DNA from: Ruegeria atlantica
GTDB lineage: Bacteria > Pseudomonadota > Alphaproteobacteria > Rhodobacterales > Rhodobacteraceae
Length of the DNA: 64,000 nucleotides
Assembly: GCF_013032005.1 (NCBI RefSeq)
Contig: NZ_WQBE01000001.1
Span: forward strand, 434,001-498,000
Reading direction: 5' to 3'
The stretch's first letter is position 1. Every line of letters begins with the position of its first letter. Under the pieces are notes generated by a model. The model searched no databases and was not told the origin of the DNA. It was given only the letters and a program-made list of their open reading frames with translations. The translations under genes and the position numbers were made by a program. Of this stretch, positions 11,390 through 51,633 are shown one piece after another.

Positions 11390-12298
11390 CTAGAGTTTTC
11401 CCATCTGCTTCAATTGTTTGCGCTGCGTTATGATCTCATCCTGAACAAAGTCACGGAAGGCCGCGACGCGCTTGGAATGGCGCAGTTCCTCGGGATAGGC
11501 GAGGTATACGGGAACATCCGCACTTTCGATATCCGACAGGATCGGCGCGACATTGGGAAGCCCTTGGGTAACGTAGTCCGGCAGGACGCCAATACCCAAG
11601 TTATGCAACACACCCTGAAGAACACCAAAATAATTGTTCACGGTCAGCAGTGATCCTGGATTGTAGGTCATCAGATGGCGCACCATCGCAGCACCTGCAC
11701 CAACTTGCGGTGCTGAAGGTGTCTGACAGATCAGCCGGTGATTTTTGATTTCGTCCAAAGATTTCAGCATACCGCCATGGGTATCGATGTATTCCTGCGT
11801 CGCATACAGCTGCATCTGCACGGTCATCAGGCGTTTGCGGACCAGATCGGCCTGGCTGGGCTCTTTCATGCGGATGGCGACATCAGCCTCGCGCATGGGC
11901 AGGTCTAGCACGCGCTCTTCCAGCATCAGGTCGATATTGAGATCGGGGAACTGGTCGTACAGTTTCGGCAGGCGCGGCGCCAGCCAAAGCGTGCCAAAGC
12001 CGTACGTAGTTGTGACGCGCAGAACGCCAAACACTTCTTCTTCGCTGTCGCGAATGCGCGCAGCAGCAGCGTCCAGACGTTTTGTCATGGCCGAGGTTGC
12101 GTCAAACAACAACTCGCCCTGTTCTGTCAGGATCAACCCGCGCGCGTGGCGGTGGAACAGCGTCGAATCAAGCGACTCTTCCAACGCTCTGATCTGTCGG
12201 CTGACGGCCGATTGCGACAAGTTCAGCTTGTCACCCGCATGAGTCAGGCTGCCTGCATCCGCAACTGCGTGAAATATTCTAAGCTTGTCCCAATCCAT
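11390..12298 (-). CDS. LysR-family transcriptional regulator
   Basis: A 302-residue regulator with an N-terminal winged helix-turn-helix (residues 2-60; LNLSQSAVSRQIRALEESL) and a periplasmic-binding-like effector domain. It is divergent from the indolepyruvate oxidoreductase gene with a 169-bp shared region holding a T-N11-A dyad (12401-12419), so it probably controls that gene and itself. The ligand is unknown; an aromatic keto acid or amino acid would fit the target. The start ATG at 12298 gives the usual family N-terminus. Confidence 0.9.
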   Translation of the reverse strand: MDWDKLRIFHAVADAGSLTHAGDKLNLSQSAVSRQIRALEESLDSTLFHRHARGLILTEQGELLFDATSAMTKRLDAAAARIRDSEEEVFGVLRVTTTYGFGTLWLAPRLPKLYDQFPDLNIDLMLEERVLDLPMREADVAIRMKEPSQADLVRKRLMTVQMQLYATQEYIDTHGGMLKSLDEIKNHRLICQTPSAPQVGAGAAMVRHLMTYNPGSLLTVNNYFGVLQGVLHNLGIGVLPDYVTQGLPNVAPILSDIESADVPVYLAYPEELRHSKRVAAFRDFVQDEIITQRKQLKQMGKL

Positions 12299-43126: not shown

Positions 43127-44380
43127 TCAAAGGAAGTGAATTCCCGTTCCAATCACGGCCATGATGGCCAGAGTCGTTGCCATCCCAAATTTAAACTTAA
43201 AAATCAATAGCCCAGCCAATAGTGTCAGGATCAGAGCGGCAGGATCCAGGCTGGCTGGATCGGGCCTGGGGATGGTCACCGGACCCCATGACTGTTGGGG
43301 AATAGTCTGAAACAGAACGTTCAGGCTGAACCATACTGACAGGTTAAGAATCACACCTACCACAGCGGCAGTAATCCCATGCAGCGCGGCGGACAACCTT
43401 GGACGGGTCGCCAATTGGTCCAGATAGGGGGCGGCCAAAAAAATCCACAGAAAACACGGTACAAATGTGGCCCAAAGGGCGACTGCGCCGGCCGCTATTG
43501 CAAGCGACGCACCGCCGTTGATTTGACCAGTCAACATGGCGACAAACTGTGTCACCAGAATCAACGGTCCCGGGGTCGTTTCGGCCAGACCCAGCGCGTC
43601 GATCATTTGATCTGTGCTGACCCATTGATATTTTTCCACCACAGTCTGGGTCATATAGGCCAGCACTGCATAGGCCCCGCCAAACGTGACAACGGCAAGG
43701 CGAGCAAAGAACCAGCCCAGATCGCTCAACAGTTTTTGTCCCGTCAAGGTCAGTGCCAATAGTGGCCCCAGCCACAAAACCAGCCAAATTGCGGCGGTAC
43801 CGAGCATGCCTTTGACCTTTGGGGCAGGGGGTGCATTTGCGGTATTGACCTCGCCGTTAAAGGTGACAAAGCCCCAGAGTGCTGCCGCAAGGATGATCAG
43901 AGGAAAGGGAAGGTTTAGCGCGAATATAGCAAGAAAACCCAGCCCAGCGATCGCCCGATGCTGTGTGTCGGTCAGAGCTTTGCGCGACAGGTTCCTAAGA
44001 GCCTGAAGAACGATGACAATCACCGTCGCTTTCACACCCAAAAAACCAGCCTGTACCAATGGCAGGTCGCCAAACGCAGCATAGAGCCCAACAAGAACGG
44101 CGATGACAAACGCCCCTGGCAGCACAAACAGGGCACCAGCGATCAACCCGCCGGTCACGCCGCGCAGACGCCAACCCGCATAAGTGGCCAGTTGCATGGC
44201 CTCGGGGCCGGGCAGCAGCATGCACAGGGACAAGGCGCGCAGATAGGCCTGTTCGTCCAGCCACGGGCGTCGCTCGACCAGTTCCTGGTGCATCAGGGAA
44301 ATTTGCGCGGCCGGCCCTCCGAACGACAGCAACCCGATGCGGCCAAACACCCGGACAAGGTCTGATAGGGATGGCGTCAT
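43127..44380 (-). CDS. chrA: Chromate transporter ChrA
   Basis: A 417-residue long-form CHR protein with two homologous halves, each with five to six membrane helices. The conserved FGGPAAQISLMH (residues 20-31) and LPGPEAMQL (near 55-63) in the first half are mirrored by FGGAYAVLAYM and TTPGPLILV in the second. It exports chromate, probably driven by the proton gradient. Its ATG overlaps the stop of the ChrB fusion gene by 4 nt, so they form one operon. Confidence 0.93.
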   Translation of the reverse strand: MTPSLSDLVRVFGRIGLLSFGGPAAQISLMHQELVERRPWLDEQAYLRALSLCMLLPGPEAMQLATYAGWRLRGVTGGLIAGALFVLPGAFVIAVLVGLYAAFGDLPLVQAGFLGVKATVIVIVLQALRNLSRKALTDTQHRAIAGLGFLAIFALNLPFPLIILAAALWGFVTFNGEVNTANAPPAPKVKGMLGTAAIWLVLWLGPLLALTLTGQKLLSDLGWFFARLAVVTFGGAYAVLAYMTQTVVEKYQWVSTDQMIDALGLAETTPGPLILVTQFVAMLTGQINGGASLAIAAGAVALWATFVPCFLWIFLAAPYLDQLATRPRLSAALHGITAAVVGVILNLSVWFSLNVLFQTIPQQSWGPVTIPRPDPASLDPAALILTLLAGLLIFKFKFGMATTLAIMAVIGTGIHFL

Positions 44381-45192
44381 GATTTGCGATCCGTTAGCCA
44401 GTCGTGACCCTCGTCAAACGCGTCCCGCGCCCAGCGGTACAGCGCGTCATACAAGTGCAGCCCTGCCTCGAGGTTTTGGTGATCGTCGCGGTATTGACGT
44501 GACAAGCCGACAGAGATCGCCAATAGCCCGGCGGCTTCGGGGGCGAGATCATGGCGATTGGTGTCGGCGGCCCGAACGACCGTGGCTAATCGGTCAAGCG
44601 CGGGCATGTGCAGCTGAAACTCGACCAGCATGGTGTCAAAGGTGCAGCGATCCTGTCTGTGGGACCAGAACGTATCTTCGATATCGAATGGTGTCGCATC
44701 GAAGGCTTGAGCGGTGGCTTCAACCTCTGGCGGGGCTACGAACAAGAACTGCGCATCGGGATCGACGAAGCGGCGGATCAGCCATGGGCAGGCGATCCGG
44801 TCGATCTTGGGCCGGTGGCGCGTAACCCAAACGGATCGGCCATCATCCCGCCTTGGCACAACCGAGGCCGGTATCCTTGGCGCATCCGCCATGTCGCGCC
44901 AACCGTACATCCCGCCTTCCAGAAATTCGGCTTCACATCCCTTGCTGCGCAGCCAGGACACGACGCCTTGGCTGAGCTTCTTGCCTTTCTGGCAAATGAC
45001 GACGGCGTTGCGATTGCCAATTCGGTGGGCAATCCCGTCGATATCCATGGCAGGATGGCGAACGGAACCGGGGATCAGATACGGGTCGGCCTCAAAATCC
45101 TCATCCAGACATATGTCGACCAAAACCGGAGTCTGTGGCGTTCCGATTAGGCGCATCAGCTGTTTAGGTGTAATTGAATTGGGCGCAGGCAT
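44377..45192 (-). CDS. Rhodanese-ChrB fusion protein (chromate resistance)
   Basis: A 271-residue protein from the ATG at 45192 (AGGAGA upstream). The N-terminal 110 residues are a rhodanese-like domain with a candidate active-site Cys67 in VICQKGKKLSQG. The C-terminal part from about residue 118 (WVTRHRPKIDRIACPWLIRRFVDP) is the ChrB C-terminal domain. ChrB proteins modulate chromate resistance with ChrA. The replacement of the usual ChrB N-terminal regulator domain by a rhodanese suggests a role in thiol or sulfate-analogue chemistry rather than DNA binding. Confidence 0.85.
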   Translation of the reverse strand: MPAPNSITPKQLMRLIGTPQTPVLVDICLDEDFEADPYLIPGSVRHPAMDIDGIAHRIGNRNAVVICQKGKKLSQGVVSWLRSKGCEAEFLEGGMYGWRDMADAPRIPASVVPRRDDGRSVWVTRHRPKIDRIACPWLIRRFVDPDAQFLFVAPPEVEATAQAFDATPFDIEDTFWSHRQDRCTFDTMLVEFQLHMPALDRLATVVRAADTNRHDLAPEAAGLLAISVGLSRQYRDDHQNLEAGLHLYDALYRWARDAFDEGHDWLTDRKS

Positions 45193-45320
45193 AGCATGTC
45201 TCCTGTTTTTGGCGGATACATGCGAAACTTGGGCTGGCGCCTCACGGGGCGTTCGCAATCTTACCCCATGATCTTTGCTTACGGCTAAGCGCCAAAGGGG
45301 TCAAGATTGCCTGAACCGTG

Positions 45321-45752
45321 TTACACCCAATCGAGCCTTTGACCTGTCATGCAGACAGGCAAGGTGTCTTGCGGAAACTGCCCGAGTTGTTCGAACAAAG
45401 AAATGAAGTCGAATTGGTTATAAGCCTCGACCATGCGACCGTCCTTGACCCGCGCGAACACGCTGCCAGTGGCCATTAGCGGGGCGCCATTGTCGGCCCG
45501 CGTCGTGCTGACATGCAAAATGGCAGAAACCCAGTCCCCATCTTCGACGATCTTTGGAATTTCGACCTTGATGTCCCCAAGAACGTGACGAAACGCCATG
45601 ACCAGATCGCGGAAATCATCCGCGCCGACCTGCATTTCGGGGATCAACCCTTCGGCCATCGTATCAGCGCTAAAATACTGATTTATCGCATCAAGGTTCC
45701 CGTTTTCCCAAACCTCGGAATACCATCCTTTGACGACATCTGTATGGGACAT
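45321..45752 (-). CDS. SnoaL/NTF2-like protein (ester cyclase family)
   Basis: A 143-residue protein with the SnoaL-type cone fold pattern: MSHTDVVKGWYSEVWENGN at the start, ADDFRDLVMAFRHVLGD in the middle and RMVEAYNQFDFISLFEQLG near the end. These proteins act as isomerases or ligand-binding proteins with little sequence constraint, so the reaction cannot be given. AAAGGAGAG precedes the ATG. It is separated by 128 bp from the chromate operon and by about 100 bp from ssrA, both on the same strand. Confidence 0.8.
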   Translation of the reverse strand: MSHTDVVKGWYSEVWENGNLDAINQYFSADTMAEGLIPEMQVGADDFRDLVMAFRHVLGDIKVEIPKIVEDGDWVSAILHVSTTRADNGAPLMATGSVFARVKDGRMVEAYNQFDFISLFEQLGQFPQDTLPVCMTGQRLDWV

Positions 45753-45850
45753 CCCGACTCTCCTTTTTCTGTCGGGGTCAGCATGAGACCAAAGGGTGAA
45801 TAAATTCTGAACGTGAACAAGATCAGGGTTAAACAGCAGACATTAGGGAG

Positions 45851-46160
45851 AAAATGCAGGTTTCTGTTGCCAGGTACCTGCGAACCCCGCCTTACGCGGC
45901 TAGGCGCAAGGACTTAAGTTTCGGTCTTGTTACTGCTTACGCAGCAACTGCAACCGGAGCACGATTGTCGTTTGCAATTGTACTATTTTCGCCGGTAACG
46001 GTGGCAGACAGCCGAGACAAAGCTAACCCCTTTAGACGTTCGTCGATCCTATTTCGGCCCCAAAATCCTCAAACGAAGGATGGTTGGTGGAGCCGCCGGG
46101 TACCGCCCCCGGGTCCGATCCGCTTATTACGAGCGCGTTTATGTCCATAGTCCCGAAAGA
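45851..46160 (-). ncRNA. ssrA: Transfer-messenger RNA, circularly permuted two-piece type
   Basis: On the minus strand the acceptor piece comes first (from about 46151), with a T-loop-like GGGGGCGGTACCC and the 3' end CGGCTCCACCA at 46085. A spacer of about 23 nt follows, then the coding piece from GGGGCCG at 46061. The two ends pair as a 7-bp acceptor stem with a G-U at position 3, the alanine identity element. The resume frame at 45975-45937 encodes ANDNRAPVAVAA and stops with TAA. A pseudoknot-like GCAGGT/ACCTGC stem and a short T run (45851-45881) end the gene. It tags stalled peptides for ClpXP. Confidence 0.92.
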
Positions 46161-46167
46161 CATATCC

Positions 46168-46196
46168 TATATAGGTGAGCGCGCGCGTGGATGCAA
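46168..46196 (-). promoter_or_regulatory. ssrA promoter
   Basis: On the minus strand TTGCAT (46196-46191), a 17-bp spacer and TATATA (46173-46168) form a strong sigma-70-type promoter, placing the transcript start near 46160, just ahead of the acceptor piece. Confidence 0.75.
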
Positions 46197-46236
46197 ACCA
46201 GGAATTCTAATCTACGCTTGTTTTAAAAACAGATGC

Positions 46237-46599
46237 TTACGCGGCCCTGTTGATGTTCGCCAAGATCAACCACAGCGCCAGGGCCAATTCGATTCCTCCG
46301 AATGTCATGGCTTTGATGAGTGGCGGATTGTCAAGAATGACCGAGACAAACCTCCCAAGCGCCGCGCCCGCATAAACAACGCCCAACATGGCATAAGCCA
46401 TAGGATTGTTCAGCCACAGCACCACCGCGCCAGTTACGACAAATAGCCCACCGACTGATGCGCGCATCTCGCTGAGACCCATGTTGCTGTCGGTTGGTGT
46501 CAAATCCAACGAGGCCGCAGTGAACGCGGGCGCCAGAAATCCGAAGAGGCCAAAACCTATGGTCAAGAGGGCGGCAATTACGTTCAGCGCTGTTGTCAT
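46237..46599 (-). CDS. DUF4345 family membrane protein
   Basis: A 120-residue protein from the ATG at 46599 (GAGGGACAG upstream) with four membrane helices at about 3-22, 45-65, 70-90 and 96-117. It has the SEMRASVGGLFVVTG and YAGAALGRFVSVILD segments typical of DUF4345. Its function is unknown. It starts 10 bp after the end of the GntR regulator gene on the same strand, so the two are probably cotranscribed. It ends about 40 bp before the ssrA promoter. Confidence 0.72.
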   Translation of the reverse strand: MTTALNVIAALLTIGFGLFGFLAPAFTAASLDLTPTDSNMGLSEMRASVGGLFVVTGAVVLWLNNPMAYAMLGVVYAGAALGRFVSVILDNPPLIKAMTFGGIELALALWLILANINRAA

Positions 46600-46609
46600 C
46601 TGTCCCTCA

Positions 46610-47341
46610 TCAAGCAGGTTTACGATGTTGCTGGGCGACATCCTGGGCCAGCTTACGGGTGTATTCTTCTAGCTCAACTAGTTTTGCATCTACCTTTGCC
46701 GCATCCCTTTCTTCCAGCGCATCGGCAATCTGATTGTGCAAGGAGATGATTTGTTCCCGCGATCGGGCGGTGAAGGTGATCATGTTCATCAAGGGCTGCA
46801 TGGCCTCGACAGCGCCGGCCAACTGGTAAGAGAGCACCGGGTTGTCGGCACCATCTACCAAGGCCCGATGGAATGTGACGTCTGAAGCGCAAAAGGCCTC
46901 ATCCGAAAGCCTAGGCTGTGCCTGACGGAAAATCTCGGCCCGCATGGTGGCCAGTTGATCCGAAGTACGGCGTTGCGCAGACAAAGGCGCGCAGGCGCGT
47001 TCCAACGAAAATCGGGCTTCGCAGGCAGTATCAAAGCTGACCGCATTCATCGACAACAGCAGTGTTGAGGTCGTGATTTGCTGCGAATACGCGTCCTCAA
47101 AGCTGATCCGGTTGACAAAAGCACCCCCGCTGGCGCCCCGCTGCGTTCGGATCAAGGATTGCGCGGCTAGACGTTTCAATGCCTCGCGCACCGTGGGGCG
47201 TGAGACCTGAAACTGATCGGACAGTTCTGCCTCGGACGGCAAACGCTCATCCACGATCAATTCCCCCGAGATGATGGCATCACGGATGGCCTGCGCGATT
47301 TGCGCAGACAAATCGGCGGGTTTTCGTGGGTCGATTTTCAT
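46610..47341 (-). CDS. GntR-family regulator with FCD domain
   Basis: A 243-residue FadR-subfamily repressor: winged helix at residues 10-75 (LPSEAELSDQFQVSRPTVRE) and an all-helical FCD effector domain with metal-site histidines (FHRALVDG, SLHNQI). A GntR regulator next to dmdA is known in roseobacters such as Ruegeria pomeroyi, where it is linked with DMSP metabolism. Here it is divergent from the DUF2182-DUF1326-DinB-dmdA-acuI series and separated from it by tandem TGTCTGACA operators. The effector is probably a DMSP catabolite (inference). Confidence 0.88.
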   Translation of the reverse strand: MKIDPRKPADLSAQIAQAIRDAIISGELIVDERLPSEAELSDQFQVSRPTVREALKRLAAQSLIRTQRGASGGAFVNRISFEDAYSQQITTSTLLLSMNAVSFDTACEARFSLERACAPLSAQRRTSDQLATMRAEIFRQAQPRLSDEAFCASDVTFHRALVDGADNPVLSYQLAGAVEAMQPLMNMITFTARSREQIISLHNQIADALEERDAAKVDAKLVELEEYTRKLAQDVAQQHRKPA

Positions 47342-47370: not shown

Positions 47371-47397
47371 TGTCTGACATTTAAAAGTCTGACATTT
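47371..47397. promoter_or_regulatory. Tandem GTCTGACA operators between the GntR gene and the dmdA-side genes
   Basis: GTCTGACATTT occurs at 47372-47382 and again at 47387-47397, a 15-bp period. The first copy is the palindrome TGTC-T-GACA and the second GTC-T-GAC, the form expected of FadR-subfamily GntR sites. They lie in the 86-bp intergenic region and overlap possible promoters on both strands. Confidence 0.6.
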
Positions 47398-47427
47398 GAA
47401 TTGCAAGGACTGAGTCGGGAGGGACGC

Positions 47428-48219
47428 ATGAGTCGCGCAGTTCTACGCAGCGGTTTGTGGCTTGGGTTTTACAGCCTGATTCTGTGGGCCTGGTGGATGA
47501 TGTTCACCATGAGCCGCGGAATGGATCTGGATTGGATCGGGCGCCCCGGCCCAATGGGGCAAGCGATGGCCGCCATGGATCCGCGCATGGATATGTACAT
47601 GCCGATGGCCGAATTTAGCCCGCTGTTCTGGATGTGGGCCATCATGATGGCCGCAATGATGTTGCCGACCCTTGTGCCGACCTTGCGCAGCTATGATGAC
47701 CTGATCTACAGCGCCAATGGTACACGAGTTGGTTGGCTGGGCGTTCTGGCAGGGTATTTCATCGTCTGGGTTGGGTTCGCGGCGCTGATCACGGGGGTTC
47801 AGCTGGTTTTACTGTTCGGTGGCGTTGTCGACATGCTGGGCATCGCCAAATCCAGCTTTGTGGCCGGTGGTTTGATGATCGCAGTTGGCGCTTTTCAGTT
47901 CACCCGCGCGAAAGAGGTCTGCCACGGAGTTTGCCACGCGCCCATGACCTATTTTCTAGTTCATTGGAAAACCGGTTTCACAGGCGGGTTGCGCATGGGC
48001 CTGGGGCTGGGTGCCTTTTGCGTCGGATGTTGTTGGGGCTTTATGGCGCTGGGTTTCGTTGGAGGCGTCATGAGCTTGCTTTGGATGGGGTTGGCGACTC
48101 TGTTCATGGTTTTGGAAAAATTGCCTCAGATCGGTCACGCAGTGACGCGACCAATGGGGTTTGCTCTTGTTGCAGGGGGAATTCTCCTGTTGATCTATCC
48201 CTTTATTTTCGGAGGATAA
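47428..48219 (+). CDS. DUF2182 integral membrane protein
   Basis: A 263-residue protein from the ATG at 47428 (GGAGGGA upstream) with about six membrane helices. It has the family features MWAIMMAAMMLPTLVPTL (near residues 72-89), a Met-rich periplasmic stretch (MDPRMDMYMPMAEF), and a Cys/His cluster KEVCHGVCHAPMTYFLVHW (near 166-184) that could bind metal. COG5486 is described as a predicted metal-binding membrane family; activity is unknown. It is 4 bp from the DUF1326 gene, a frequent partner. Confidence 0.82.
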   Translation: MSRAVLRSGLWLGFYSLILWAWWMMFTMSRGMDLDWIGRPGPMGQAMAAMDPRMDMYMPMAEFSPLFWMWAIMMAAMMLPTLVPTLRSYDDLIYSANGTRVGWLGVLAGYFIVWVGFAALITGVQLVLLFGGVVDMLGIAKSSFVAGGLMIAVGAFQFTRAKEVCHGVCHAPMTYFLVHWKTGFTGGLRMGLGLGAFCVGCCWGFMALGFVGGVMSLLWMGLATLFMVLEKLPQIGHAVTRPMGFALVAGGILLLIYPFIFGG

Positions 48220-48223
48220 GTAT

Positions 48224-48928
48224 ATGGCTAAGAACAGAAAACCTGAAGCAGACAGGTTGCCGATCAGCCAACGTATCGACAGTCGTATGCCAAATCCCAA
48301 GCGGCGTGAGATGAGCCCGACTGATTGGGTCATCAAGGGAGAGTTGATCCTCAACTGCTCGTGCGATGTGTTTTGTCCCTGCGTTGTATCGCTGGGGGCG
48401 CATCCTCCGACCGAAGGGCATTGCCACGCGTGGATGGGGGTCATCATCGATGAAGGCCATTACGAGGGTGAGGACCTGTCGGGTTTGAACGTTGGTCTGC
48501 TGGTCGACATTCCCGGTCGCATGGGCGAGGGCCAGTGGAAAGTCGCGGCCTATGTCGATGAACGCGCTAGCGGCAAGGCCTATAACGGTCTGCTGCAAAT
48601 CTTCAGCGGGCAGGCGGGCGGTACAACTGGTCTGTTCACCATGCTGGTTAGCGAGATCATCGGGGCCGAGCGGGCCCCTGTCCAGATCGAACGTGATGGC
48701 AACAAGCGCCGCATCGTAATCGGTCGCAAGATTCAAGGCGAGATTGAGATGTTGGCGGGTAAAGACCCCGAGCATCCGGTGATGGTTTCGAACTCGAAAT
48801 ACTGGATGGGACCGGATATCATCGTAGCGCGTGGAACCAAATCCAAGGTGCGTGATTACGGCCGCGTCTGGGATTTCGGCGGTAAATCGGCCGAGATTTG
48901 CCCGATTGACTGGCATGGACCAAAATAA
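48224..48928 (+). CDS. DUF1326 family cysteine-rich protein
   Basis: A 234-residue protein with the DUF1326 core. Four cysteines are clustered as C45, C47, C51 and C53 in LNCSCDVFCPCVVSLG, followed by a His-containing GHCHAWMGVIIDEGHYEG segment. There is no signal peptide. The pattern suggests metal binding but no activity is known for the family. GGAGG precedes the ATG. The stop overlaps the DinB start by 1 nt (TAATG), and it follows the DUF2182 gene by 4 bp. Confidence 0.82.
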   Translation: MAKNRKPEADRLPISQRIDSRMPNPKRREMSPTDWVIKGELILNCSCDVFCPCVVSLGAHPPTEGHCHAWMGVIIDEGHYEGEDLSGLNVGLLVDIPGRMGEGQWKVAAYVDERASGKAYNGLLQIFSGQAGGTTGLFTMLVSEIIGAERAPVQIERDGNKRRIVIGRKIQGEIEMLAGKDPEHPVMVSNSKYWMGPDIIVARGTKSKVRDYGRVWDFGGKSAEICPIDWHGPK

Positions 48929-49434
48929 TGATCACCGGGGCCTATGCACAGGAAATGGCACGGTATAATCAATGGCAGAACAGCCAGCTGTCCGCTTTTC
49001 TTCAAGACCTGACGCCCGAGGAGTTAGCGAAAGATTGCGGCGCTTTTTTTGGCTCGATCATGGGGACTGCTAACCATCTTTTGTGGGGTAACTGGATTTG
49101 GATTTCGCGTTTTGATCAGGGCGATGGTCCAGGTGGTGGCATTCCGGAAAGTGTGTCCTTGTGCGCTGATCTGGCCGAGTGGTTGCCGCTGTGCAAAACA
49201 GTCGACGCCCGCATCTCCAATTGGGCTGGATCGCTTGAAGAGGACCTTTTGACTGGTGAATTCACGTGGTTCTCGGCGGCAAAAGAAGCTGACGTTACAT
49301 TGCCCTACGCGCAATGCGTCATCCATATGTTCAACCATCAGACCCATCATCGCGGGCAATTGCACCAAATGCTGACCGAGACCGGATCAGCCGCACCTGT
49401 TAGCGATTTGGTGTTTATGCCAAAGGAGGTTTGA
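48928..49434 (+). CDS. DinB-family protein
   Basis: A 168-residue four-helix-bundle protein. The three metal-binding histidines expected of the DinB/YfiT fold fit H50 (ANHLLWGNW), H137 and H141 (HMFNHQTHHRGQ). DinB-fold enzymes include thiol-dependent S-transferases using mycothiol, bacillithiol or glutathione. A detoxifying or thiol-transfer role would suit a neighbour of DMSP metabolism, but is unproven. The gene overlaps DUF1326 by 1 nt, and dmdA begins directly after its stop. Confidence 0.85.
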   Translation: MITGAYAQEMARYNQWQNSQLSAFLQDLTPEELAKDCGAFFGSIMGTANHLLWGNWIWISRFDQGDGPGGGIPESVSLCADLAEWLPLCKTVDARISNWAGSLEEDLLTGEFTWFSAAKEADVTLPYAQCVIHMFNHQTHHRGQLHQMLTETGSAAPVSDLVFMPKEV

Positions 49435-50538
49435 ATGCCGCAAATTTCCTTATCCCGCCGGTTGCGGCGCACGCCCTTCTCAGACGGTGTCGAGGCTGCG
49501 GGAGTTAAAGCATACACGGTCTATAACCGCATGTTATTGCCCACAGTTTTCGAAAGCGTCGAGGCAGATTACAGGCATCTGAAATCCCACGTTCAGGTCT
49601 GGGATGTTTCCTGTGAACGGCAGGTTGAGCTGCGCGGCCCGGACGCGGGCAGATTGATGCAAATGCTGACGCCGCGTGATCTGCGGGGGATGCTGCCGGG
49701 GCAGTGCTTTTACGTGCCCATCGTCGATGAAACCGGTGGGATGCTGAACGATCCTGTGGCGGTGAAGTTGTCCGATGATCGTTGGTGGATTTCCATTGCT
49801 GACAGTGACCTGCTTTTTTGGGTCAAAGGGGTCGCCAACGGGTATCGGCTGGATGTTCTGGTGGATGAACCCGACGTGTCGCCCTTGGCGGTTCAGGGGC
49901 CCAAGGCGGATGACCTGATGGTGCGCGTATTCGGGGATCGCGTGCGGGATATCCGGTTTTTTAAATTCGATATGTTCGACTTCGAAGGTCGCGACCTGGC
50001 CGTGGCTCGGTCGGGTTATTCGAAACAGGGCGGGTTCGAGATTTATGTCGAAGGCACTGAAATAGGCATGCCATTGTGGAACGCCCTTTTTGCGGCGGGT
50101 GAGGACCTGCAGGTGCGGGCGGGCTGTCCCAACCTGATCGAGCGGATCGAAGGTGGTTTGCTGTCTTATGGCAATGACATGACCGACGACAACACGCCGC
50201 ACGAATGTGGTTTGGGCAAGTTCTGTAATACTCACACCGCGATTGGGTGTATCGGTCGGGATGCATTGTTGCGTGTGGCTAAGGAAGGCCCGGTACAGCA
50301 GATTCGTCCAATTGCGATTGAGGGCGACGCAGTACCGCCCTGCGACCGACCGTGGTCTGTGTTCGCAGGTGGAAGGCGTGTGGGGCAGGTGACCTCAGCC
50401 GCGTGGTCCCCGGATTTCGGGACGAATGTCTCAATCGGCATGCTGCGATTAAGTCACTGGGAAGCAGGAACGATTGTCGAGGTTGAAACGCCAGACGGCA
50501 TGCGCCGCGCCACAGTGCAGGAGCGTTTCTGGATCTAA
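49435..50538 (+). CDS. dmdA: Dimethylsulfoniopropionate demethylase DmdA
   Basis: A 367-residue GcvT-fold protein. It strongly resembles marine DmdA in AYTVYNRMLLPTVFESVEAD (residues 26-45), VQVWDVSCERQVE, TPRDLRG and NLIERIEGGLLSYGNDM. DmdA transfers a methyl group from DMSP to tetrahydrofolate, giving methylmercaptopropionate. It differs from glycine cleavage T proteins at the substrate site by family-specific residues. The ATG follows AAGGAGG, directly after the DinB stop. acuI follows after 99 bp, the arrangement known in roseobacters. Confidence 0.93.
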   Translation: MPQISLSRRLRRTPFSDGVEAAGVKAYTVYNRMLLPTVFESVEADYRHLKSHVQVWDVSCERQVELRGPDAGRLMQMLTPRDLRGMLPGQCFYVPIVDETGGMLNDPVAVKLSDDRWWISIADSDLLFWVKGVANGYRLDVLVDEPDVSPLAVQGPKADDLMVRVFGDRVRDIRFFKFDMFDFEGRDLAVARSGYSKQGGFEIYVEGTEIGMPLWNALFAAGEDLQVRAGCPNLIERIEGGLLSYGNDMTDDNTPHECGLGKFCNTHTAIGCIGRDALLRVAKEGPVQQIRPIAIEGDAVPPCDRPWSVFAGGRRVGQVTSAAWSPDFGTNVSIGMLRLSHWEAGTIVEVETPDGMRRATVQERFWI

Positions 50539-50637: not shown

Positions 50638-51633
50638 ATGTTCAACGCATTGGTGATGGAAAAGGATGAAGAGAGCGGCTTGGCCAGCCCCTCGGTCAAG
50701 CAGTTGTCTCTGGATGATTTGCCAAATGGTGACGTGACCGTGGCGGTCGAGTATTCGACGGTGAATTACAAGGATGGTTTGTGTACGTCGCCAAAGGGTG
50801 GCGGGCTGGTGCGCAACTACCCACATGTACCGGGCATTGACTATGCCGGGACCGTCGAAGCGTCATCAGATGACCGCTATAAGCCCGGTGACAAGGTAGT
50901 TTTAACCGGCTGGCGCGTGGGTGAGGCGCATTGGGGCGGGTATTCCCAGAAAGCCAATGCGCTGGCCGATTGGTTGGTGCCCTTGCCCGATGGCTTGGAT
51001 GCGCGCCAGGCAATGGCTGTAGGCACGGCCGGATTTACTGCGATGCTGGCTGTGATGGCGCTTGAGGATCACGGAATGACACCCGATCACGGGCCGGTTT
51101 TGGTAACCGGGGCCGCAGGTGGGGTCGGATCTGTGGCCACGGCCATTCTGTCCAATCTTGGCTACGAAGTGGCGGCTGTTACCGGTCGACCCGAGGCGGG
51201 GGATTACTTGAAATCTCTGGGGGCCAGCACAATCGTCCCGCGGGAAGAACTGAACGAAACCACCAAGCGGCCTCTGGAAAGCGAAAGCTGGGCTGGCTGT
51301 GTTGATGCAGTCGGAGGAGAGATGCTGGCGCGCGTCCTGGGGCAGATGAAATACGGCGCCTCGGTCGCGGCTGTGGGGTTGGCGGGTGGTGCTGCTTTGC
51401 CTGCGACGGTCATTCCATTCCTTCTGCGCGGCGTAAATCTGCTGGGCATCGACAGCGTGATGCAGCCTTATGAAAATCGCGTCCGGGCGTGGCAACGTAT
51501 CGCCACCGATCTGCCGATGGATAAGCTTGAGGCAATGGTTCAGCCAGCAACCCTTAACGATCTGCCGCAACTGGGCGCCGATATTCTGAAAGGTCAGGTC
51601 AAAGGCCGCGTCGTCGTTGACGTAAACGCCTGA
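50638..51633 (+). CDS. acuI: Acryloyl-CoA reductase AcuI (MDR family)
   Basis: A 331-residue medium-chain reductase of the YhdH/AcuI group: NYKDGLC (residues 43-49), YPHVPGIDYAGTV (about 61-73), and the NADPH-binding VTGAAGGVGSVA (about 155-166). AcuI reduces toxic acryloyl-CoA to propionyl-CoA, which completes DMSP carbon use and protects the cell. The ATG has AAAGGAAA upstream. A strong hairpin terminator follows at 51650. Confidence 0.93.
   Translation: MFNALVMEKDEESGLASPSVKQLSLDDLPNGDVTVAVEYSTVNYKDGLCTSPKGGGLVRNYPHVPGIDYAGTVEASSDDRYKPGDKVVLTGWRVGEAHWGGYSQKANALADWLVPLPDGLDARQAMAVGTAGFTAMLAVMALEDHGMTPDHGPVLVTGAAGGVGSVATAILSNLGYEVAAVTGRPEAGDYLKSLGASTIVPREELNETTKRPLESESWAGCVDAVGGEMLARVLGQMKYGASVAAVGLAGGAALPATVIPFLLRGVNLLGIDSVMQPYENRVRAWQRIATDLPMDKLEAMVQPATLNDLPQLGADILKGQVKGRVVVDVNA

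Follow-up and report, generated by a model that had tools for sequence, protein, structure and literature searches.

DmdA-type demethylation contributes to setting the share of marine DMSP sulfur that is retained by bacteria instead of being released as DMS, and the dmdA locus of Ruegeria atlantica raises the question of what three further genes do between dmdA and a divergent GntR-type regulator. The locus lies in a stretch of 64,000 nucleotides (the window) of a 4.40 Mb genome in 29 contigs. A sequence-only reading had regarded the three genes as one trio, inserted at this position.

The genes between the regulator and dmdA

Open reading frames and Pfam matches confirmed the coordinates of the three plus-strand genes and their placement between the regulator and dmdA as given in the sequence-only reading (Table 1). 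The frame of the first gene has a possible start at 47401; the ATG listed is the start chosen in that reading. From PpoB2 through DUF1326, DinB and dmdA to acuI, the genes, presumably co-transcribed, are separated by a 4 bp gap, a 1-bp overlap, 0 bp and a 99 bp gap, respectively. The PpoB2 match to PF09948 (E 3.6e-57, 193.8 bits against a Pfam cut-off of 28.7) covers positions 1–187 of the 188 in the profile, and the matches to PF07040 (E 3.2e-53, 180.9 bits, cut-off 25) and PF05163 (E 2.5e-24, 86.5 bits, cut-off 23) are equally above the Pfam cut-offs. The earlier family labels DUF1326 and DinB therefore stand, whereas "DUF2182" is now named PpoB2 and described as a copper chaperone in Pfam. 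The acuI product passes the acrylyl-CoA reductase subfamily, but falls just under the AcuI equivalog cut-off (426 against 440 bits). The DUF1326 protein of the window is 99% identical to copies in R. arenilitoris and R. atlantica records. Genes for ChrA-like, ChrB/ChrE-like, SnoaL and DUF4345 proteins (window 43127–46641) recur beyond the GntR gene in many of the best 80 named loci.

Table 1. Features of the dmdA locus, with positions in the window
Feature	Position	Strand	Basis
Divergent GntR/FCD-family regulator	46610..47341	-	PF00392 and PF07729 above cut-off
Candidate twin operator, TGTCTGACA-N6-AGTCTGACA	47371..47394	none	Sequence pattern
PpoB2-family (PF09948, former DUF2182) membrane protein, Met/Cys/His-rich	47428..48219	+	Pfam; AlphaFold2 model; conserved Met/Cys
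DUF1326 (PF07040) soluble protein, CxCx3CPC...C	48224..48928	+	Pfam; motif alignment
DinB-fold protein (PF05163), optional member	48928..49434	+	Pfam; alignment; locus counts
dmdA, DMSP demethylase	49435..50538	+	NF009133, 695.8 bits, cut-off 410 (equivalog level reached)
acuI, acryloyl-CoA reductase family	50638..51633	+	TIGR02823, 452.8 bits, cut-off 297

For Ruegeria pomeroyi, the passages on dmdA and acuI in two papers describe the two genes as adjacent and co-regulated, with acrylate as the inducer (PMC3338564, PMC5395565). The window resembles that cluster in that dmdA adjoins acuI. Neither PpoB2 nor DUF1326 is named in those passages, and the term "GntR" is found in the available text of neither paper. 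The same pair as in the window is present on plasmid pMaD9 of Marinovum algicola (MALG_05029/05028), where a regulator is followed by the pair, an acyl-CoA synthetase gene, the DmdA gene, an "alcohol dehydrogenase" gene in the place of acuI and a gene for SBP56, a putative methanethiol oxidase. There the pair is known from its annotation alone ("Transmembrane protein involved in DMSP breakdown" and "protein involved in DMSP breakdown"), which names no function. The idea of a link between the pair and DMSP is therefore not new. A literature search found no experiment behind this annotation, the phrase "involved in DMSP breakdown" being absent among the matches listed. Within the collection of papers searched, none had the words DUF2182 or DUF1326 and none had "DmdR" together with DMSP, and in searches for dmdA or DMSP with copper, copper chaperone or DinB, the copper and chaperone passages found concerned other matters.

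Linkage of the PpoB2-DUF1326 pair to dmdA and acuI

The distribution of the genes was determined in 198 genomes from 197 genera of the Rhodobacteraceae in the wide sense, of which 106 contained DUF1326 and 110 contained PpoB2. Only DmdA rows over the curated cut-off were used, giving 92 dmdA loci in 84 genomes. DUF1326 was located within 5 kb of dmdA at 64 of these loci, corresponding to 64 of the 84 dmdA-positive genomes, and all 64 linked pairs were upstream of dmdA, on the same strand and in the order PpoB2-DUF1326. Because of this frequent upstream linkage on the same strand, the pair is probably part of the DMSP breakdown pathway and not a chance insertion; its presence is the majority state in the sampled dmdA-positive genomes, so that "inserted" was not the right word. 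A same-strand PpoB2 gene within 3 kb accompanied 120 of the 125 DUF1326 copies, 96 of them in the order PpoB2-DUF1326 and 24 in reverse order, and none of the 24 reversed pairs was at dmdA. One of the 96 (L016, on contig C24 of genome G036), numbered among the pairs away from dmdA and lying outside the DMSP clade described below, shares its PpoB2 with a reverse-order DUF1326 counted among the 24.

At the genome level, the PpoB2-DUF1326 pair was present in 71 of the 84 dmdA-positive and 24 of the 114 dmdA-negative genomes (71/24/13/90 for both, pair only, dmdA only and neither, the order used throughout; Fisher p 1e-19, kinship ignored). The proposed co-occurrence with dmdA is thus strongly borne out for the pair. 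The reverse-order pair showed no such association (8/13/76/101, p 0.82, kinship ignored). According to the earlier reading, the placement would be incidental if the genes were common without dmdA and not induced by DMSP. The first of these turned out to be half the case: 32 of the 96 pairs are away from dmdA, but 20–23 of these precede acuI.

For comparison of the surroundings, 140 stretches were taken. They comprised the 32 pairs away from dmdA, the dmdA-linked loci other than that of the window (63 of 64), 17 dmdA loci out of the 28 without linkage and another 28 stretches with reverse-order pairs or lone copies. By phmmer, acuI was recognised at 56 of the 63 linked loci, GntR at 50, DinB at 33, a BCCT transporter at 16, an acyl-CoA synthetase at 8 and SBP56 at 1. 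In the best 80 named loci, dmdA was found in 71 and DinB in 58, and GntR, PpoB2, DUF1326, dmdA and acuI were all present in 68. Genes for a class V aminotransferase, a photolyase and a cyclopropane-fatty-acid-synthase-like protein recur 3' of acuI in family loci (e.g. L032 and L103). Taken from gene order and linkage, it is strongly supported that PpoB2 and DUF1326 form an accessory pair that comes first in the DMSP-demethylation/acryloyl-CoA operon of Rhodobacteraceae.

The trio did not hold as one unit. DinB comes and goes, missing from 30 of the 63 linked loci and present without the pair at 2 of the 17 unlinked dmdA loci, once in the arrangement GntR|DinB-dmdA-acuI. The stable unit is therefore PpoB2-DUF1326, and DinB would be a separate, optional enzyme. 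In the DinB alignment, H50 was conserved in 23 of 23 relatives and H137 and H141 in 22 of 23, which we take to be a three-histidine metal site. A DinB gene beside the pair at L226 (6681–7181) has lost H137 and H141 of this presumed site.

Downstream of the 32 pairs away from dmdA, acuI was found in 23 cases when judged by sequence clusters and in 20 when judged by phmmer (150 bits); the remaining pairs had acuI across the GntR gene (2), an acyl-CoA synthetase gene (1), a contig edge (3) or none of these (3). In a tree of 142 DUF1326 proteins, all 84 dmdA- or acuI-linked copies, including that of the window, belonged to one clade of 95 members (support 0.91); the tightest clade within it (94 members) had support of only 0.17. 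The window genome contains two further DUF1326 genes outside this DMSP clade, one in a second, reverse-order pair (G000:C24:141130–142544) and one alone (G000:C12:46044–46583).

In a sample of 249 genomes from the phylum, DUF1326 was detected in 28 and PpoB2 in 34 (E 0.001), 9 of each set being from the family of the window. No recurrent neighbour was found for reverse-order pairs and pairs outside the family: among 99 neighbour proteins, predicted by a rough GC-based gene caller, no Pfam family occurred more than twice. Copper-related neighbours were sought for these other-type pairs, and none recurred among the 99 proteins scanned. A Rhizobiaceae-like pair of matching order (L236) is located by genes for a CDP-alcohol transferase, a quinone reductase and ABC proteins, not by DMSP genes, and at L247, outside the family, an acyl-CoA synthetase gene is found 3' of the pair. 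As the pair also occurs outside the family without recurrent neighbours, the sequences are read as showing that it is a general unit, of which one clade has been drawn into DMSP metabolism. Apparent PpoB2::DUF1326 fusions among long open frames were rejected, the eight cases printed starting with out-of-frame sequence.

A candidate operator shared with a dmdB-like gene

The gap between GntR and PpoB2 contains two palindromic sites, most often spaced by 15 or 33 bp. Their core GTCNGAC was present in 61 of 76 such gaps, which come from related genomes, whereas Markov resampling of the gaps gave 0.95 on average. The rule used to score the two sites was widened (variant half-sites, fixed spacings) after the named loci had been viewed and is therefore not independent of the data; a narrower rule gave 12 of 55 linked loci. 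With the wider rule, the sites were detected before PpoB2 in 25 of 55 dmdA-linked loci, in 3 of 24 pairs elsewhere and in none of 22 reverse-order pairs. Inside the linked loci they preceded dmdA in 0 of 63 and acuI in 1 of 55 cases; before acuI elsewhere they were found in 1 of 25 loci, before dmdA in loci lacking the pair in 2 of 17 (L133 and L141), and in random windows in 81 of 5600. The rule thus recognises no sites at the majority of linked loci (30 of 55), and most pairs away from dmdA seem, from these counts, to be under other control.

When the window genome was searched with the 24-base pattern of the twin site, allowing three mismatches, it was found at two places: before PpoB2 and, with two mismatches, in front of a gene that scores best with the 3-(methylthio)propionyl-CoA ligase (DmdB) family, at 810 bits just under the cut-off of 822. 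A reversed control pattern also gave one match in this genome, so the second site alone proves little. In a search of 41 genomes of the genus, the pattern was present without mismatch in all 40 genomes listed; the second site occurred in the same form in 32 of these 40, and 8 had none within three mismatches. It was located 60–119 bp before a dmdB-like gene in 20 of 20 genus-mate loci, which had been picked for having the site. Since dmdB-like genes share it, the site is tied to DMSP demethylation, with the pair as the first genes behind it at the dmdA locus. Based on the linkage, the DUF1326 clade and this common site, the pair very probably belongs to a DMSP-demethylation regulon, although no more than 25 of 55 linked loci pass the two-site rule. 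The GntR protein is the presumed binder of the candidate twin operator. A lone TGTCTGACA, identical to one half of the twin site, is present at window position 11720.

These data also bear on the view that PpoB2 and DUF1326 are incidental neighbours, kept at dmdA through shared descent of the locus. Related genomes do inflate the counts, the association tests ignore phylogeny, and the rule misses the twin site in the linked loci mentioned above. However, the sample holds 197 genera among its 198 genomes, the pair stays while other surrounding genes vary between loci, it is mostly at acuI when it is away from dmdA, and loci with the site have it in front of the pair, not in front of dmdA. This view was already disfavoured and we regard it as very improbable. 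The pair is a real, conserved accessory of a known pathway, built of ordinary parts.

Copper, thiols and methanethiol oxidase

In an alignment of 11 diverse PpoB2 proteins, one of which (L087) is a partial frame, M73, M78, C169, C198, C201 and C202 were invariant, and M69, M77 and C165 were almost as well conserved; the histidines of the CHGVCH motif, invariant in 38 close relatives, varied among the diverse members. The AlphaFold2 model of PpoB2 (pLDDT 85.5) is almost wholly helical, and from helix lengths and charges we read it as seven membrane helices with a Met-rich loop outside and a C(x)3C loop inside, a layout that we take to be similar to that of CTR copper transporters. DUF1326 was earlier described as a four-cysteine soluble protein; five cysteines (C45, C47, C51, C53 and C67) proved invariant in 11 of 11 diverse members, all with the motif CxCx3CPC. 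Searches by sequence found no relative with a solved structure, and the PpoB2 model gave no PDB match by fold (best E 0.93).

The PF09948 family is named for PpoB2 of Marinomonas mediterranea (COG5486), for which passages of one paper report copper transfer to tyrosinase (PMC2855505). The window protein is in the same Pfam family, a likeness drawn at the level of the family profile. The Marinomonas gene is in a tyrosinase operon, whereas that of the window leads a DMSP operon together with a DUF1326 partner. Because of the family name and role, the conserved Met/Cys residues of PpoB2 and the invariant cysteines of DUF1326, copper(I) is the favoured ligand of the pair, with about an even chance of being right. 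The literature searched contained no copper experiment on a pair of the DMSP clade.

PpoB2 would then move or hold Cu(I) in the inner membrane, along a path formed by the Met-rich loop, two helices with MWxxMMxxMM and CxGCC, respectively, and the C(x)3C loop, and DUF1326, in which no signal peptide was seen, would be its cytosolic thiolate partner. Products of the operon, methanethiol from the DmdA-D steps and the electrophilic acryloyl-CoA, may disturb the thiol/copper balance, and the pair may keep copper bound and usable during such a disturbance. The explanation as a whole, an accessory pair behind a site shared with dmdB that handles Cu(I) and so guards the thiol/copper balance, seems to us as apt to be right as wrong; copper or thiol chemistry in general is plausible. 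If the pair handles copper, its leading position in the operons of most dmdA-positive genomes (64 of 84) would constitute a trace-metal link to the DMSP pathway. A bolder version is improbable: here PpoB2 acts in bacteria as a Cu(I) channel whose CTR-like logic, with a Met-rich loop outside, an MxxxM helix and a Cys loop in the cytosol, arose independently, DUF1326 is the cytosolic carrier, GntR wires the pair into DMSP demethylation, and copper supply or sequestration controls DMSP sulfur assimilation versus methanethiol loss.

Copper may also have no part in it, the pair being a transporter or an enzyme for an organic intermediate of DMSP or acrylate (an acyl-CoA, acrylate or a thiol). The usual partners, acuI and dmdA, are in line with this, joined by an acyl-CoA synthetase at 8 of the 63 linked loci and once outside the family (L247). 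The association of the pair with cupin DMSP lyases was weak (47/48/35/68, p 0.03; in dmdA-negative genomes p 0.10; kinship ignored), and the DUF1326 model had a weak match to acetoacetate decarboxylases (E 0.009, TM 0.30). However, that model is poor (pLDDT 50), too poor for the match to count and for this fold to be assigned. The conserved Met/Cys set presumably resembles a soft-metal site, and the other-type pairs occur outside DMSP contexts. An organic substrate in place of copper is somewhat unlikely.

SCO1 and PpoB2 are different families. A copper-chaperone-type gene nevertheless accompanies a methanethiol-linked gene both in the window and in the mtoX-SCO1/senC-mauG operon, where, in the passages concerned, SCO1 directly adjoins mtoX and the Hyphomicrobium methanethiol oxidase is described as needing copper (PMC5739008). 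The pair could thus be a dedicated metallochaperone that delivers copper to the SBP56 methanethiol oxidase removing the methanethiol of demethylation. SBP56 is directly beyond GntR in 11 of the best 80 named loci and, on the plasmid of Marinovum, comes after the AcuI-like gene; its one occurrence at the family's linked loci is in a genus-mate (G043). Three cluster SBP56 proteins were read and contained GWNACS, HTIHC and GGDCS, the cluster 1 motifs given for methanethiol oxidases of Rhodobacterales (GWNACS, HTV(I)HC and GGDCS(T)) in a passage of PMC10936201, and are putative methanethiol oxidases. All three missed the MtoX equivalog NF052453 (cut-off 650 bits), two with no match up to E 1e-30 and one with 111.7 bits. 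The window genome's own SBP56, encoded elsewhere in the genome, scored 154.9 bits.

Pair and SBP56 co-occurred in the 198 genomes (52/43/16/87, p 7e-9) and weakly within the dmdA-negative genomes (8/16/10/80, p 0.02), kinship being ignored in both tests. However, no association was found among dmdA-positive genomes (44/27/6/7, p 0.36), 43 of the 95 genomes with the pair lack SBP56 and 24 of the 95 lack dmdA. The co-occurrence tests weaken a dedicated oxidase chaperone as the sole explanation, and we consider it unlikely. Under the preferred reading, a Cu(I)-handling accessory pair, the proteins may still supply copper to a copper-dependent methanethiol oxidase where one is present. DmdA-like paralogs scoring under the DmdA cut-off are located a few kb from SBP56 in G123 (C1:245732 and 248227), in G032 (C71:96110 and 100915) and in some other genomes.
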